Shown here: positions 14,795 through 23,346 of the stretch, one piece after another
Position numbering within the stretch: position 1 is the stretch's first letter
Layout of the letters: each line of letters starts with the position of its first letter
Translations under genes and position numbers: made by a program
The notes under the pieces: generated by a model
Databases searched by the model: none
Told to the model about the DNA's origin: nothing
Seen by the model: only the letters and a program-made list of their open reading frames with translations
Origin: Candidatus Nitrosopumilus sp.
Lineage (GTDB): Archaea; Thermoproteota; Nitrososphaeria; Nitrososphaerales; Nitrosopumilaceae
Assembly: GCA_013215285.1 (NCBI GenBank)
Contig: JABSRD010000001.1
Location: 124,001-188,000, forward strand
Length of the DNA: 64,000 bases
Direction of reading: 5' to 3'

Positions 14795-16252
14795 ATGGAT
14801 TATGAAGCAGTAATGAAATTGGCACTTGAGCGTGGATTTTACTTTCCTAGCTGTGAAGTTTATGCTGATGCACAAGCTGGATTCTGGGAGTATGGACCAT
14901 CAGGAGTTAGTTTGAAAAATAAATTTCTTGAATTGTGGAGAAGGGAGTTAATTAGAAGAGATGGGATGCTAGAAATTGATGGATCTCAAATTATGTCTAA
15001 ATCAGTTTTTGAAGCATCAGGACATTTAGGAAACTTTGCTGATCCAATAATAAAATGTACAAAATGTAATTCAACTTTTAGAGCAGATAGAACAATTGCT
15101 GAAATTACACAAATTGAAATTCCTGAGAGTGCTGATTTGGAGGAATTCGATAATGCCATTTCACAAAATAACATAAAGTGTCCAAAATGTAAAGGGGACT
15201 TTGATAAAGTGAAAAAATTTAACATGATGTTTAAAGTCGGTATTGGTCCTGAAGGAGAAGAGGCATACCTTAGACCAGAAACTTGTCAATCAATTTTTGT
15301 TGATTTTCCCAGACTTTACAAAACTATGAGAGGAAAACTTCCGTTAGGAATAGCCCAAGTAGGAAAAAGTTTTAGAAATGAGATAGCACCAAGACAGAGT
15401 CTTCTTAGATTACGTGAATTTTATCAAGCAGAAATTGAGGTATTTTGTAATCCTACAAAACTAGATGAAGTAGAAAAGTTTGTAGAAATTCAAGATACAA
15501 TAATTAGAGTACAGACAGATGCAGAACCTGTCTCCATGACATGTAAAGAAGCAGTAGATTCAGGTGTTATTCCAAACAAGTTGGTGGCATATTATTTAGG
15601 AATATTAACAGAATTCTATGAAAAAACAGGAATTGATATTTCAAAAAGTAGATTCAGAAAATTGGGAGATAAAGAAAAGGCATTTTATGCAGAAGTTGCA
15701 TTTGACTTTGAAGTAGAGACTACACTAGGATGGCTTGAACTAGTTGCATGTAACTATAGATCAGACTATGATTTGACTAGTCACGCAAAAAAGAGTAAAG
15801 TGAAATTTGAAGTGATGGATAATGATGAAAAGGTTCTTCCACATGTATTTGAGATTTCAATGGGTATTGATAGGAGTCTCTATACAATTTTGGAGCATTC
15901 ATTAAAAGATGATAAAGAACATGAAAGAATAGTTTTATCACTTAAACCATACTTGTCGCCAGCACATGTAGGAATTTTGTCACTAGTAAAAAAAGATGGG
16001 TTAAAAGAAAAAACTGATGAAATTTATCTTCAAATTAAAAGAAAGTTTGATGCATTTTTAGATCATTCAGGTGCTATAGGAAGACGATATCGTAGACTAG
16101 ATGAAATTGGTGTACCATTTGCAATTACAGTTGATCATCAAACTTTAGAAGATGATACTGTAACAATTAGACAAAGAGACTCCATGGAACAAACTAGAAT
16201 AAATATATCTGAATTAGATTCAATTCTTTCAGAGTCTGTTGCGTTTCCCTAG
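14795..16252 (+). CDS. glyS: Glycyl-tRNA synthetase (class II, homodimeric type)
   Basis: Charges tRNA-Gly. Class II features include GFWEYGPSGVSLKNKF at the N-terminus, RPETCQSIFVDF, motif 2 GKSFRNEIAPRQSLLRLREF and motif 3 FEISMGIDRSL. A C-terminal anticodon-binding domain follows (GRRYRRLDEIGVPFAITV). A zinc-binding CTKC/CPKC pair lies in the insertion near residues 90-150. Length 485 is slightly short of eukaryotic forms but normal for archaea. The last 4 bases overlap the convergent surface-protein fragment. Confidence 0.96.
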   Translation: MDYEAVMKLALERGFYFPSCEVYADAQAGFWEYGPSGVSLKNKFLELWRRELIRRDGMLEIDGSQIMSKSVFEASGHLGNFADPIIKCTKCNSTFRADRTIAEITQIEIPESADLEEFDNAISQNNIKCPKCKGDFDKVKKFNMMFKVGIGPEGEEAYLRPETCQSIFVDFPRLYKTMRGKLPLGIAQVGKSFRNEIAPRQSLLRLREFYQAEIEVFCNPTKLDEVEKFVEIQDTIIRVQTDAEPVSMTCKEAVDSGVIPNKLVAYYLGILTEFYEKTGIDISKSRFRKLGDKEKAFYAEVAFDFEVETTLGWLELVACNYRSDYDLTSHAKKSKVKFEVMDNDEKVLPHVFEISMGIDRSLYTILEHSLKDDKEHERIVLSLKPYLSPAHVGILSLVKKDGLKEKTDEIYLQIKRKFDAFLDHSGAIGRRYRRLDEIGVPFAITVDHQTLEDDTVTIRQRDSMEQTRINISELDSILSESVAFP

Positions 16253-17355
16253 TCTGAATATACAGTAATTGTTTCAGAGTTTATTCTATGTTTAACTTTG
16301 ACAGTCAAATCTTTAACTGCTTGAGCTAGTGGGATTAATCCTTCTTCAGTTTCCAATGTAACTACCCAATCACCTACAAGTGGATCAATTGAGGTAATTG
16401 AAAATCTTTCAAATGAACTATCAGGACCACTATACTTGACTCTCAATGTTTGTCCGTCATATTGAACACTATCTAGTCCACCTCTATTTGATCTAGTACT
16501 GTCTTTTACTGAACATTCTTCTGATGAACCAATAATACACTGTCCATTAGGTGCAGTTACTTGGAAGTTGAATTCATCAGTTAATGAATTTGATGCATAA
16601 ATCAATAATGGTTCAGATAAAACATTTCCATCTCTTTCTACTATTTCGAGTGTTTTCATATCATATGCAGACATTGATTCTGTTCGTGGATAACTATAGA
16701 GTAGTGCTGAATCAGTAATCTCAGTACTACCATACAAATCTACTTTGCCTTGAAGTTTGTATTCAGATAACCCTTCAGAATGTGGTACTTTCCAATCAAA
16801 TGATACTTTGGTTTGACCAGTCTCAAAGAATTCTGCTCTTTCAGATACGACCTTACCATCTACTATTAATGAAACAATACCATATGCAGGGGATTGATCA
16901 TTGTTGATGAACAAATCAGGTCTAATTATAGAATTACTCTGTTTAATTGATGGTACGTCCAATTCTAATGATACATCAGGTGGGGTAATTGGTTTTACAC
17001 CTATAGTATAATGTACAGATTCAACTTCAGATAGTTCTTCATCAATAATGTGTAGCCAATATCCAATTGCTGGATCTTGCATTAGGAATGATGGAATAGT
17101 TCCAGTTACTAGATAAGATGATTCAGTAAATATCATTGGTTCAATATTCATTCTAATTGCAATGTATTCATCATCAGTTTGTCCTAGAGTGATGGTTCTT
17201 AGTTCAGCTCTCTTTAGTGGATTTTTACTATCAATGATTGCAGAAATTGTAAGGTCTTGTTCTGATACATAGGAGAATTCTGAATCAGTATCAGCTCTGT
17301 GTTTTGTAGCATTATCAATTTGGAAGTTTACATCAAATATTCTAGGTAACTTCAT
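16249..17355 (-). CDS. 3' portion of a giant surface protein, detached by a small inversion
   Basis: The 368-residue frame begins MKLPRIFDVNFQID without signal peptide or ribosome-binding context and reads like the middle of a protein: beta-rich Ig-like segments, a LRVKYSGPDSSF stretch and a basic C-terminal tail. It is in the same frame as the 1977-codon ORF upstream, but four stop codons lie between them. The intervening 70 bases, if flipped, remove all stops and join the two ORFs in frame at LSFTV-PRIF. I therefore regard this as the C-terminal ~15% of one secreted protein. Whether it is translated alone from its ATG is unknown; that ATG itself lies in the inverted bases. Confidence 0.7.
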   Translation of the reverse strand: MKLPRIFDVNFQIDNATKHRADTDSEFSYVSEQDLTISAIIDSKNPLKRAELRTITLGQTDDEYIAIRMNIEPMIFTESSYLVTGTIPSFLMQDPAIGYWLHIIDEELSEVESVHYTIGVKPITPPDVSLELDVPSIKQSNSIIRPDLFINNDQSPAYGIVSLIVDGKVVSERAEFFETGQTKVSFDWKVPHSEGLSEYKLQGKVDLYGSTEITDSALLYSYPRTESMSAYDMKTLEIVERDGNVLSEPLLIYASNSLTDEFNFQVTAPNGQCIIGSSEECSVKDSTRSNRGGLDSVQYDGQTLRVKYSGPDSSFERFSITSIDPLVGDWVVTLETEEGLIPLAQAVKDLTVKVKHRINSETITVYSD

Positions 17356-17418
17356 GTGAAGGAGTTGTCATAATAGTTAATATCCCAGATGATGAATTTA
17401 GTGAATTGTCATTTACAG
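17349..17418. other. 70-bp in-place inversion splitting the giant surface-protein gene
   Basis: On the coding (minus) strand this segment contains four in-frame stops. On the plus strand it is open and reads TSCEGVVIIVNIPDDEFSE..LSFT. Reversing exactly these 70 bases gives, on the minus strand, NAAIHL-TSCEG at one joint and LSFT-V-PRIFDV at the other, both in frame. This merges the two ORFs into one of about 2365 codons (16249-23346). The segment ends share only a 3-base inverted match (ACT/AGT), so no substantial recombination site is visible. Confidence 0.72.
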
Positions 17419-20400
17419 TAGGTGAATTGCAGCATTAACTGAATTTTCTGTAGTTCCTTTTTCTTCAGTTACAATAACCATCAAGAATGTCTCATCTGAA
17501 GTTATTGGTATTTCATAGAGATATCTATCGACTCGTGTAATCTTGTTTAATTCTTCATATGATTGATCATTAGATAATATAGCTTGAACTGTGCCAGTCT
17601 TTGTAGTATGAATGGTAACTGTTGGTGGAGAATCTGCATCACTTGAAACTAAAATCTTTGCAATGTTTTCTTCACATTTATCATATGATACCTCATTAAT
17701 TGTGAGTGGAGTTCCTAGAATTCCACCAAATCCACCTGCACCAGATGATCCAGGACCAACACCAATTCTACCTCCACCTGAACTTCCAGAGCTTGGTGAA
17801 CTTGATGAACTTGGTGATGAAGATCTCTTTGATGAAACTGATTTCTTTGAAAAGTGATTTGCACCAAATTCTACCTCACAGGAATCAGTTTCGGTTGTAG
17901 ATGGTTCATTAGATAATATAGTATCTACAGTACTTACCCAAGTTGAACCAACTAGAGTATGGATTTCTATATCAGCACATCCATTTTCTAAAGTGGCAAT
18001 ATTACTAGATGTTGGTTTTGGAATCAAAACTTTAATCTTTCCAGGTACATCGTGATTATTTTCATCACCCCAGTTGAATCCATCAGTGCCAGAACTTTCT
18101 TCATAGGGATACTTTACATCAATGAATAATTCTAATTCATTTGAAATACCGCTACTATCTAGTGTAGGTGCATTAATAATTACATTAGAAGTTTCAAGTA
18201 CAATCCAATCTTCTGTAAGAGATCCAGTTGTTGTACTAGATGGATGTGATGTTACTTCAAAATTCAATATACCACCAAATGATGGTAGTAAAGATGATTG
18301 AACGGGTAATACCATTTTCTGTCCTGGGATTACTGCTACAAATGGTGGTGTTGATACTGTTTGATGATTTGTAGTTTCACTTGAAACTAGAGGTGACATT
18401 ATTGCAGTAAGAGAGTTAACTGAAGGTAGTATATGGGTTGGAATGTTAGAATTTGCAATTATATCACTTCCACTTGTTCCAGGAGCGGTATTTTCTGAAA
18501 TTACAATTGCAGGTTGAATAGCAGATGCAGAGGATATACCTGCAGTATTTGCAGATCCTACAACAGTAATTTCTGGTAAGTCATCAGATGAAGTAAGTGT
18601 GGATGAACTAGTGCTAGTTTCAATAGTATGTGTACCTGAAATTTGTAATAGTACACCAGCACTAAGATCAGGTGCATCACTTGATGTAGTAGGTTCAGTA
18701 TTTTCTATGCCAGCTGTATCTACAAGTATGAATTTTGTAACAGTTTCTGATGCTATATCAATATGTACAGTTGTAGAATTAGTTGTTAGTGTTGCTCCTA
18801 CAGGAGGTGATATTTGTTCAACTAAATAATCTCCAAATGGAATTGGATCTAGTTTAACAGTTCCAAAAATACCGACATCAGGGAATACACCATCAGTTAC
18901 TGATAATGAACTGAGTCCAGTAGATGGATTAGGTGTAATACGGTATGATGCACCTAGTTGGGCTACACTATCATTTGCTGTTAGTAGCGTTAATGCGCCA
19001 TTTGGTGGTGCAGTAGATACTATACTAGCTGGAGTAATTGCAATATCTCCTTCAATATCAGATACAGGATTTGTTAATTCTACAGTAGGTGTGTTGCCAA
19101 CTCCTAATGGCGGGGATATCGTAAGTAAAACAATATTTCCAGATACTGATACTGACTCTGAGATAGTTGGAATTGTGGTAGCTGAGATTGATCTTAAAAT
19201 ATTGTCATCGATTGTAGGAATTGTGGTTGCTGTAATTGTTATGATTGCAGAGTCAGAGATAGTTGGAATTGTGGTACCGACAATAGTTCGTTGAGCATTA
19301 TCATCGATGGTAGGAATTGTAGTTGCTGTAATTGTTATGATTGCAGAGTCAGAGATAGTTGGAGTAGATAGACCAATAATTGGTCTCTCTAAATATTCTA
19401 CCCAAACAAATGCATCATTACCAGATTTAGTAAATGAGCCAGCAACAGTATGACCTTGTTGTAATGGTTCTCTAACTGCTGCTGCAACAGCAGAGAATTT
19501 TCCACCTTGACCTGAAGCACTAGACTCCAAAAATTCAGTTACTGTAGATGTGGAAGTAATTGCACCAGTTCCAGCACCATTAGTACCTCCACCTACACCA
19601 ACAATGATGCTGTTAGTAGCAGTGGTGGTTAATGTTTGGGAAAAGGGTGATGTGGTATCAACAATATTTTGAACACCAATACCAGATATACCAGTCAATA
19701 CCTGTGCAGCTGCATTCCATTTTGTAGGTGTAGCAGACCATGTAACCACAATATCACAGCTAGTACCACCATCAATAGGTACCAAAGAGAAAATTCCAGC
19801 ATATGCATTACCAGAACCAGAATTTATAGAATTATCAGCTGTACCCATACTTGTTGAACCTTGTGAACACGAACCACCACCACCGTAATTTACTGATAAT
19901 ACTGATTCTGTATTTGGGATGTGACCGCCTATAGTAACTACTATTAATGGATCATCACCAAAATCGACTCCACTTGTATCAATTGGAAAGGTTTGTGTTG
20001 ATGTGGTATCTACAGCACCTTGAGCAGTAGCAGTATCAATAACTGAAGAAGGATCGTTTGCTACAAACCATGGTCTTGCCTCAGTATACACTAAATTATT
20101 TTCATATTGAATTTCAATAGGACCTAAATCATAAAGACTTGGGAAATCAAATGGAACTGAATATGTATAACTTGCAGATGTTTTATCATCTACAAGTGTT
20201 CTAGTCCATGTTAGTATTTTTCTATCTCCAATAGTTTCAACTAAAGCATCAGTTTGTACATTAAGTACTGCAGGAATTGTTTCAACTATAGTAATAGAAT
20301 TGCCACCAATAAATGACTTGATATCAATTACAACATCAAATGCATTAGGATTAGTTGTTGGATCAATCTTGCTTTGAGTAGTTCTGATAATATCATAGTC

Positions 20401-23346
20401 ATAAAAAGTTGCTACATCAAATGTTGTATCAAAGCTAGTGTTAATTCCATCTGCTTTTGCATTGATAGTAACTTTGTATGTTCCTTGATTATTTGTTACG
20501 TAATTTGTCTCATAAAGTCCAATTTCTGAGCCTGAAATAATACCAGAATTTGATGAAATTGTTCTGATTTGATTATTTGGACTAGTAATACTCATTGATA
20601 ATTCTGCATCATCTATTGGATGACCTTCTGAGTCAAGTACTACAATTACAAAGTTAGCACTTTCTCCAGGATGATATGTACTCTTATCAGTATTTAGTGA
20701 TACTAATCCCCAAGCAAATTCAGATTCTACAGTGTGTTGTTCACCATTTACAATAATAATTATTACAATTTTGTAAAGTCCTGGTTTGGTATCAACATCT
20801 GGTAAAAATTTGATGTCAAATTTACCATCTCTTAATTTTTCAATTTGAGTAGTAATATTTTTCTGATTTCCTTTAGAATCATAAATTGATATATTAATTT
20901 GTTCTTCAGAACCACTCCAGTTATTTGATTGTACAGTAACATCAACTTCAACATCACTTATACTTTCAATGTTTGTGATTTTCTCTTCTATATTATTACT
21001 CATGTTAGTATATTTTGTTTGAGAGATTTTCTGAGTTGTTTGTTTGAGTTGTTGTATAAGTAATTTTAATTCACTTTTTAGTTCTTTGATTGTTGTTTCA
21101 TCAAGGCTGTTTGTTGATTTTAGTGATGTAAATCTATCTTTAAATTCTTGAATTTGTTGTTTTGTGTTTGCAATTTCAATTCTTGATTCATCATCTATAG
21201 TTTGTGGTACTGCATCTACAAATGGAATTAAAATATTTATGAATCCTAATGTTGGATTAGCAATTTCTGTAGTTGGTTCTAATGTAGATTCTATACTTAA
21301 TTCTTGATCAATTTTATCAAGAGTAATTTTAAATTCTTCTAATAATAATGAAGTTTCAAGTTCTTCGATCTCATTTAGTAAGACATCATATTCATCATAA
21401 AATTCTAAAATAATTTCTACATCTTGAGTTATTTGATATGAACTTTCAATAGAATTAAGTGTTGGAGTTACATCTAATGGAGTAATTTCAACAATTACAG
21501 GCTCAATTATGCTATTTTCAGGCATGATTTCAGTTGATGTTTGGTTAGTTGATGTGATTTCAGTTGATGTTTGGTTAGTTGATGTGATTTCAGTTGATGT
21601 TTGGTTAGTTGATGTGATTTCAGTTGACTCTGTGATCATTTCAGTAGAGTTGATATTATTAACTAATTGTTCTAATTCCATTTGAGCAATAATTTCTTCA
21701 ATACTTAACTCAGATATTGTAATCAATGCTGCATACGTATCTTTTGTTTGTTCATACATTGCAAAAATTTGTTCATCATCTAAAACATAATCATATAATG
21801 ATACATCATCAATTTCTCCAGAAAATTGATTTTTTGGTGTGATTTCTTGATTTTTTGTGGTTAAAGTAGCACCAATCACAATATCTTCTTCGGATTTAAT
21901 ATTTTCAACAGTTGTAGTATCTAATTTTCCATTTGGTGCAAGAATTGGAATACCAGTAACTTCTTCAGTTCCTTCTCTAGTACCATTAACAAAAATTCCA
22001 ATAAATTTACCTGTAAATGTAGAAGATAAGAATGACCAATCTTCTGTAATTGTACTAGTAGATTCAACAGTAGTCCATTTTATACCATCAAATACTGAGA
22101 ATGTAGCAGTTTTTTCTGATTGTATGTTGTTGTTAATTGCTAGAGAAAATGATTTGTATTTGCTTAAGATAGTAAATTCTGGTGAGCCAGATGAATAATC
22201 AGGTTTTACCCATGCAGTTATTGTCAAACCATCAAGATCATCAGTAACTGTAACATTTTCTATTTGAATAAAGTTACCCTGACCATTTAATTCTAGAATT
22301 GATAATTCTGGTTCAGTTATGATTTCAGTTGAGGTGGAGTTTGTCTCTGTAACTAATGTATCAAATTGAAATGAAACAGTAGCCTCTGGAATAATAATTT
22401 CTGGTTCAGTTATGATTTCAGTTGAGGTGGAGTTTGAGATAGGCTCAGTTGAGGTGGAGTTTGTTTCAATTGGAATAGTTGAGGTGGAGTTTGATAATAT
22501 GATTTGCCCTGATAAATTCATTAAATTGTTTTCTTGATCATCAATAATTCCTTCAAAAGAGAATTCTTCAGCATATGCATATCCCCAATAATTGTTTGAA
22601 ATTAATAAAGGTGTAGAAATTGTGGATGAAACTAAAATAATTACAAAAAAGAAAACCATACTTTTACGTAAGTATGATATACGTATCTGTTCGAAATTAG
22701 ATTTTAAAATGAATAAACTAAAAATTAATATAAGAATTATAATTAGCGAAATAAATTCCCAGTTTTGTATAGAATCAGTTGAAAATAAATTAATTTCAAA
22801 ATAATTAAACGGTAATAAAATTATATTTGAAAATATTAAAGAATTTTCATTTTGAGTAATTTCATTTTGAATAATTTCATTTTGAGTAATTTCATTTTGA
22901 GTAATTTCATTTTGAGTAATTGATTTAAGTTCATTAAAAATAATTCCATTAAATAATAAATTTGAAAATTTAAAGAATTTTTCAAATTTTATTCTTTCAT
23001 TAATTCTTTCAAGAGTTGAAAGTGAATTCCAATTTGAATGATGAACAAAAAATAAAGTTTTAATTAAATCAACAGAATCAGAAATTTGAATTAGATCATT
23101 ATTTAAATTTTGATCGGAAATAATATTTTTAATTTCTAAATTATTTTTTTTAAACAAAACATTATCAGAAATTTGTACTGAATCATTTTTTTGTGTAAAA
23201 TAAAAATTTAGAGATTGTTGTTCATCTGAAAAATATAACTCATTTGTAATATATGGGTTAACTTGAGTCATTGAAACAACAGACAATGATAAAATAAGAA
23301 TTGTAAAAATTGCAAAATTCTTTTGATTGAATGGCCTAAATCTCAT
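17413..23346 (-). CDS. Giant secreted repeat-rich surface protein (N-terminal 1977 codons)
   Basis: A probable cell-surface protein. It has an N-terminal signal-like segment (residues 11-28), NEITQ repeats near 146-166, a membrane segment near 200-215, and a second signal-peptide-like segment at about 230-259 ending AYAEE. Thr/Ser-rich NSTSTE linkers rich in N-glycosylation sequons follow. Next is a LamG-like lectin domain (about 350-535, DGLTITAWVKPD ... GEIDDVSLYDYVL), three TNQTSTEITS repeats, a coiled coil (about 715-795) and an MG2/Ig-like domain near 885-975 (DKSTYHPGESANF). Thr-Ile repeats lie near 1315-1400 and a Ser/Gly-rich linker near 1832-1870. The current stop arises inside the inverted 70-bp segment, so the original protein continued into 16249-17348. 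Confidence 0.82.
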   Translation of the reverse strand: MRFRPFNQKNFAIFTILILSLSVVSMTQVNPYITNELYFSDEQQSLNFYFTQKNDSVQISDNVLFKKNNLEIKNIISDQNLNNDLIQISDSVDLIKTLFFVHHSNWNSLSTLERINERIKFEKFFKFSNLLFNGIIFNELKSITQNEITQNEITQNEIIQNEITQNENSLIFSNIILLPFNYFEINLFSTDSIQNWEFISLIIILILIFSLFILKSNFEQIRISYLRKSMVFFFVIILVSSTISTPLLISNNYWGYAYAEEFSFEGIIDDQENNLMNLSGQIILSNSTSTIPIETNSTSTEPISNSTSTEIITEPEIIIPEATVSFQFDTLVTETNSTSTEIITEPELSILELNGQGNFIQIENVTVTDDLDGLTITAWVKPDYSSGSPEFTILSKYKSFSLAINNNIQSEKTATFSVFDGIKWTTVESTSTITEDWSFLSSTFTGKFIGIFVNGTREGTEEVTGIPILAPNGKLDTTTVENIKSEEDIVIGATLTTKNQEITPKNQFSGEIDDVSLYDYVLDDEQIFAMYEQTKDTYAALITISELSIEEIIAQMELEQLVNNINSTEMITESTEITSTNQTSTEITSTNQTSTEITSTNQTSTEIMPENSIIEPVIVEITPLDVTPTLNSIESSYQITQDVEIILEFYDEYDVLLNEIEELETSLLLEEFKITLDKIDQELSIESTLEPTTEIANPTLGFINILIPFVDAVPQTIDDESRIEIANTKQQIQEFKDRFTSLKSTNSLDETTIKELKSELKLLIQQLKQTTQKISQTKYTNMSNNIEEKITNIESISDVEVDVTVQSNNWSGSEEQINISIYDSKGNQKNITTQIEKLRDGKFDIKFLPDVDTKPGLYKIVIIIIVNGEQHTVESEFAWGLVSLNTDKSTYHPGESANFVIVVLDSEGHPIDDAELSMSITSPNNQIRTISSNSGIISGSEIGLYETNYVTNNQGTYKVTINAKADGINTSFDTTFDVATFYDYDIIRTTQSKIDPTTNPNAFDVVIDIKSFIGGNSITIVETIPAVLNVQTDALVETIGDRKILTWTRTLVDDKTSASYTYSVPFDFPSLYDLGPIEIQYENNLVYTEARPWFVANDPSSVIDTATAQGAVDTTSTQTFPIDTSGVDFGDDPLIVVTIGGHIPNTESVLSVNYGGGGSCSQGSTSMGTADNSINSGSGNAYAGIFSLVPIDGGTSCDIVVTWSATPTKWNAAAQVLTGISGIGVQNIVDTTSPFSQTLTTTATNSIIVGVGGGTNGAGTGAITSTSTVTEFLESSASGQGGKFSAVAAAVREPLQQGHTVAGSFTKSGNDAFVWVEYLERPIIGLSTPTISDSAIITITATTIPTIDDNAQRTIVGTTIPTISDSAIITITATTIPTIDDNILRSISATTIPTISESVSVSGNIVLLTISPPLGVGNTPTVELTNPVSDIEGDIAITPASIVSTAPPNGALTLLTANDSVAQLGASYRITPNPSTGLSSLSVTDGVFPDVGIFGTVKLDPIPFGDYLVEQISPPVGATLTTNSTTVHIDIASETVTKFILVDTAGIENTEPTTSSDAPDLSAGVLLQISGTHTIETSTSSSTLTSSDDLPEITVVGSANTAGISSASAIQPAIVISENTAPGTSGSDIIANSNIPTHILPSVNSLTAIMSPLVSSETTNHQTVSTPPFVAVIPGQKMVLPVQSSLLPSFGGILNFEVTSHPSSTTTGSLTEDWIVLETSNVIINAPTLDSSGISNELELFIDVKYPYEESSGTDGFNWGDENNHDVPGKIKVLIPKPTSSNIATLENGCADIEIHTLVGSTWVSTVDTILSNEPSTTETDSCEVEFGANHFSKKSVSSKRSSSPSSSSSPSSGSSGGGRIGVGPGSSGAGGFGGILGTPLTINEVSYDKCEENIAKILVSSDADSPPTVTIHTTKTGTVQAILSNDQSYEELNKITRVDRYLYEIPITSDETFLMVIVTEEKGTTENSVNAAIHLL
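19139..19366 (-). repeat. Tandem Thr-Ile repeat in surface-protein gene
   Basis: Imperfect tandem repetition encoding units of the form ATTIPTI(S/D)(D/E)... (ITITATTIPTIDDN, VGTTIPTISDSA and variants), about four or five units. Two long stretches including ATTGTTATGATTGCAGAGTC are nearly identical. Likely a slippage or recombination hotspot that varies in length between strains. Confidence 0.75.
21527..21625 (-). repeat. Three near-perfect 30-bp repeats encoding TNQTSTEITS
   Basis: Three consecutive 30-base units encode STEITSTNQT-type decapeptides, each with an N-glycosylation sequon (NQT). Near identity at DNA level indicates recent expansion. They form a flexible, probably glycosylated linker in the surface protein. 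Confidence 0.9.
22849..22923 (-). repeat. Five 15-bp repeats encoding NEITQ
   Basis: Five tandem 15-base units encode the pentapeptide NEITQ, with one unit reading NEIIQ. They lie in the N-terminal module between the first signal-like segment and the membrane segment. Protein-coding minisatellite, not a CRISPR: units are directly adjacent with no spacers. Confidence 0.9.

Follow-up and report, generated by a model that had tools for sequence, protein, structure and literature searches.

The question raised by this locus is whether two open reading frames (ORFs) lying end to end in one frame are separate genes or the halves of a single gene and, if the latter, what has parted them. The locus is on the minus strand of a 64,000-nucleotide stretch of a Candidatus Nitrosopumilus sp. 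genome (contig JABSRD010000001.1, positions 124,001 to 188,000; hereafter the window), where ORF1977 (17413..23346) is followed by ORF368 (16249..17355), each named for its length in codons. In a first-pass annotation of the window, these ORFs had been described as sharing a frame with four stops between them, and a micro-inversion splitting one surface-protein gene had been proposed. Both ORFs are present at those sizes, and the region between them reads NAAIHLL*MTIH*IHHLGY*LL*QLLHMKLPRIF, in which each of the four asterisks is an in-frame stop. When positions 17349-17418 are reversed, the same region reads NAAIHL-TSCEGVVIIVNIPDDEFSELSFTV-PRIF, with both joints in frame, as had been claimed, and with the terminal stop as the sole stop remaining. 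ORF1977 and ORF368 are the halves of one gene of ~2365 codons with an inverted 70-bp segment (17349..17418) between them; apart from the inversion, the 2365 codons contain no further stop or frameshift.

The evidence that carries this conclusion comes from related genomes. The reversed protein was compared with the loci of the genus, and the segment and both of its flanks aligned, open and in one frame, in all 19 of the 19 related genomes that span the segment (G002, G003, G007, G012, G031, G032, G033, G034, G036, G061, G066, G067 (L032 contig), G078, G087, G089, G094, G095, G096, and G118). The residues expected at the joint from an alignment with homologous proteins were found, most relatives reading SCEGTTVIV-P or a near variant. 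These residues are encoded in the window on the plus strand only; the coding sense of the segment (TSCEGVVIIVNIPDDEFSELSFTV) is on the minus strand in every relative spanning it. A one-residue gap in the linker is seen in a few more distant relatives, and the closest relatives align without an indel. The complete genome G078 has an ORF of 3311 amino acids, stop to stop, and a second, more distant copy in that genome (L051) likewise spans the segment. At the DNA level, the flipped sequence aligns without gaps across the segment to L032 (JOSY01000077.1, from the Marine Group I thaumarchaeote SCGC AAA799-D11), whereas the DNA as it stands requires gaps. Two kinds of relative that would have spoken for separate genes were looked for: none of the spanning relatives carries the present orientation, and no homologue was found that ends naturally at the 1977-codon stop. 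A scan of IMG/VR returned no relative. The segment is the reverse complement of the ancestral state, and its ends are free of indels relative to L032. Because of the orientation in the relatives and the gapless alignment of the flipped DNA, the inversion is, as judged from these sequences, derived, conservative (clean-ended), and specific to the present genome among those available, and the proposal of a micro-inversion splitting one surface-protein gene is backed by the 19 genomes.

The segment is bordered by a TA dinucleotide on the left (17347..17348) and on the right (17419..17420), and because TA is common to both ends, three breakpoint pairs are equivalent (17347/17420, 17348/17419, and 17349/17418). 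The present junctions on the minus strand are GCAATTCACCTACTGTAAATGAC and CACATGAAGTTACCTAGAATATT. End repeats of 3 bases had been claimed, but the perfect inverted repeat at the breakpoints is 2 nt (TA at each end), a length matched or exceeded in 20% of random 70-bp segments. Gapped similarity between the flanks stays at chance level (P 0.88), and hairpins at the site do not exceed those of shuffled sequence in strength (z 0.3 to 1.0), so a strong hairpin at the site was rejected. A short, weak near-palindrome, CTTCA-TG-TGAAG (CTTCATGTGAAG; 17350..17361, plus strand), lies beside one breakpoint. The frame agreement at the two joints, which had been considered unlikely by chance, is modest evidence when taken alone because 206 breakpoint pairs (about 1.7% of the grid tried) also reopen the frame; it is homology that carries the proof.

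The 5' part of the gene, ORF1977, encodes an N-terminal hydrophobic, signal-like segment, domains of the Laminin_G_3, filamin, and MG2 families as well as repeats, and the start of a C-terminal immunoglobulin-like (Ig-like) array, with the remaining beta-sandwich domains encoded by the 3' part, ORF368. The set of domains, together with the hydrophobic segment at the N terminus, suggests that the product is a surface protein. No naming match to the C-terminal part was found among Pfam or NCBIfam models. The homologous region of G078 was modelled with AlphaFold2 (15 sequences, mean predicted local distance difference test score (pLDDT) 82) as a row of beta-sandwich domains. In this model the inverted residues are predicted to correspond to a strand (104-108) and to a low-confidence linker (110-121) ahead of the following domain, such that in the homologue the segment would supply the final beta strand of one domain together with the linker. 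The top Foldseek matches in the PDB were Ig-like-domain proteins, including bacterial adhesins such as PrgB and streptococcal antigen I/II, and because their template modelling scores (TM-scores) were low, the C-terminal region is designated only as putatively "tandem Ig-like," with no finer assignment. The end of the gene adjoins a tRNA synthetase gene (window 14795-16252), which is also the neighbor at the loci of the relatives.

As to what parted the halves, we judge that a recent, lineage-specific mutational micro-inversion truncating a multidomain Ig-like/beta-sandwich surface protein has slightly better than an even chance of being the correct explanation. Exactly 70 bp of the gene would have been replaced by their own reverse complement through an error of replication or repair, either template switching to the other strand and back again or break repair mediated by the TA microhomology. 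Translation would end at codon 1977 through the four in-frame stops, one Ig-like domain would lack its last strand, all subsequent domains would be missing, and ORF368 would be a non-functional or unexported tail. The lesion would be tolerated because the gene appears dispensable in the clade.

Dispensability fits the state of the gene elsewhere, as close relatives carry other lesions. In G067, the single-cell genome AAA799-D11, the gene has a frameshift close to residue 2190 at a site that is not a homopolymer (L044, G067:C77, near 2067-2106); in G084 a large internal deletion has left residues ~83-564 plus 2192-2365; and in G068 the last 94 residues alone are left (L049, G068:C7, 807-1782), apparently through a natural deletion. 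The more distant G103 has kept the gene from about residue 1980 only, that is, from the second part of the segment onward (L042, G103:C30, 1435 onward). Several of these damaged relatives are draft genomes, in which single lesions may be sequencing errors; the glycosyltransferase-like gene found upstream of the remnant in both G068 and G103 suggests real deletions rather than misassembly in these two. The G068 remnant adjoins, besides that gene, a protein whose C-terminal tail is hydrophobic and resembles a sorting signal. In G103, with its glycosyltransferase-like gene upstream, homology starts a few codons from the ancestral upstream breakpoint, with matching residues at approximately window 17358-17363. 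Two independent breakpoints, that of G103 and that of the present inversion, would then nearly coincide, which may be chance or may reflect a fragile spot at the near-palindrome.

Several observations weigh against a mutational origin. The inversion is known from one assembly alone and no relative shares it, and N gaps, some with partly called edges, show the contig to be a scaffold. The ratio of nonsynonymous to synonymous substitution (dN/dS) in ORF368 is 0.11 over 158 codons against the closest relative (G091), within the range of other pairs; because of this value and the lack of a second lesion in 2365 codons, there is no visible decay, and the event is very recent, limited to some cells, or an artefact. 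The human-chimpanzee micro-inversions in PMC8755829 measure 17-33 nt, and each is flanked by inverted repeats (at least 3 nt) whose inner edges meet the breakpoints, whereas the present segment is 70 nt long, has TA alone (2 nt), and lies in an archaeal coding sequence. The scaffold gaps and the lack of decay also speak for an artefact of assembly, gap filling, or amplification, in which a piece of 70 bp was set in the wrong orientation or a chimeric molecule went into the assembly while living cells keep the intact gene. We regard such an artefact as a serious possibility, though one that falls short of being probable: constraint and the lack of a second lesion are what an intact gene should show, the orientation is absent from relatives, and conservative ends with a 2-bp match are expected of a small misplaced piece, but the nearest N is more than ~165 kb from the site, and a graph assembler requires real junction k-mers, which 2-bp end matches should be insufficient to create. 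Frequent errors should also recur, yet none did. The scan covered the coding stretches of ~797 kb, about half of the genome (contig C1 plus 20 kb from each of C2 and C3), and sought stretches whose reverse complement fits the complete G078 better than the sequence as it stands (896 queries in one direction and 748 in the other); 17349-17418 was the sole clear case (score 69 flipped versus -11 as is), the runner-up (34 versus 0) was a low-complexity stretch and noise, and no other micro-inversion was found in the ~797 kb, the reverse comparison yielding none. Systematic inversion errors in the assembly were rejected on this basis. That the halves are two real neighboring genes separated by a natural stop, the likeness on the reverse strand being incidental or the gene functionally split, is hardly credible: ORF368 has an ATG and both parts remain open, but the motif and linker conserved in the relatives are encoded on the reverse strand, no homologue found ends at codon 1977, and the apparent ATG (17353-17355) is fortuitous because it is situated within the inverted segment.

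The first-pass annotation had offered an invertible on/off switch alongside mutation and assembly error, and of the three it is the switch that finds no support, with mutation and assembly error both retained. In a programmed switch, a recombinase would flip the 70-bp segment and so toggle the full-length surface protein, which we consider improbable. Invertons are described as frequent near cell-surface genes (PMC11892184), the inverted piece keeps intact coding potential, as expected of a segment that flips back, and matches to tyrosine recombinase (PF00589) exist in the genome. These matches, however, are on other contigs or distant on the present one (nearest ~328 kb from the segment, with none within 300 kb on the contig), no match to serine recombinase (PF00239) was found in the 99% complete genome, and the off state is seen in no relative; a dedicated, usually nearby invertase, as expected of an inverton, is therefore lacking among these matches. 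The 2-nt end repeats are at chance level and the flanks are dissimilar, as against the 10-40 nt inverted repeats that flank invertons (PMC11892184), and a loop of 70 bp is shorter than the persistence length of DNA (~145 bp), under which site-specific recombination is considered physically hard (PMC8755829). A reversible, nearly repeat-less 70-bp inversion that toggles the giant surface protein through an inverted-repeat-independent recombination or replication mechanism is very improbable. Serine recombinases use a 2-bp core; a crossover at a palindromic TA core was dropped because there is no dyad symmetry around either TA and no PF00239 match. Overall, the recurrent damage to the gene and the absence of a second such event from the half of the genome that was scanned lean toward mutation, with scaffold gaps and intact constraint keeping an artefact in play. 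For the mutational micro-inversion, an error of replication or repair is the most economical cause; template switching at repeats is no more than a candidate because the human-chimpanzee cases are shorter and have repeats of at least 3 nt.

Two further features of the contig were noted. A run of ~2 kb of N (G000:C1:408139-410247, L076), with edges partly called, has on its two sides the arms of a perfect inverted repeat of 48 bp; a fold-back artefact was considered for this run and dropped because the repeat is so short, and an unresolved element bounded by long terminal repeats is the probable explanation. Near the two ends of the contig lie the arms of another inverted repeat, which are 1558 bp long and 100% identical (G000:C1:14235-15792 and 749451-751008).

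If real, the event is a conservative micro-inversion in an archaeal coding sequence, with a clear polarity, an unusual length (70 bp), and almost no end repeats; if an artefact, it provides a useful test case for assembly checks. Plain ORF calling conceals such events, as annotation would give two proteins and miss one broken surface protein. Repeated damage in close relatives would fit a fast-turnover surface trait, perhaps under pressure from viruses or grazers. A limited literature search found nothing direct on inversion precedents in archaea or Nitrosopumilus, which may exist elsewhere.

Among known systems, invertons and intragenic invertons, which bring about phase variation by site-specific recombination (PMC11892184; Chanin et al. 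2024, as cited in PMC11868660), are alike in that an inversion in or at a surface-protein gene alters its reading; unlike them, the present segment has no 10-40 nt repeats and no local recombinase, is too short, and is seen in one state. The inversion of the spacer between inverted repeats in yeast (PMC8604942) also occurs within coding sequence, with polymerase template switching as its mechanism, but the present segment is without arms. Interrupted coding sequences and recent pseudogenes share the premature stops, the intact relatives, and the repeated loss of the gene, although theirs arise by point mutation or indel and here by inversion. Clean micro-inversions with flanking repeats down to 3 nt, for which template switching or microhomology-mediated break-induced replication (MMBIR) has been proposed, are known from the human-chimpanzee comparison (PMC8755829) and resemble the present case in being a clean, sporadic replacement by the reverse complement, with nothing gained or lost. 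The favored explanation belongs to this known kind, the micro-inversion, within which the event would be unusual in its length and in the near absence of end repeats.
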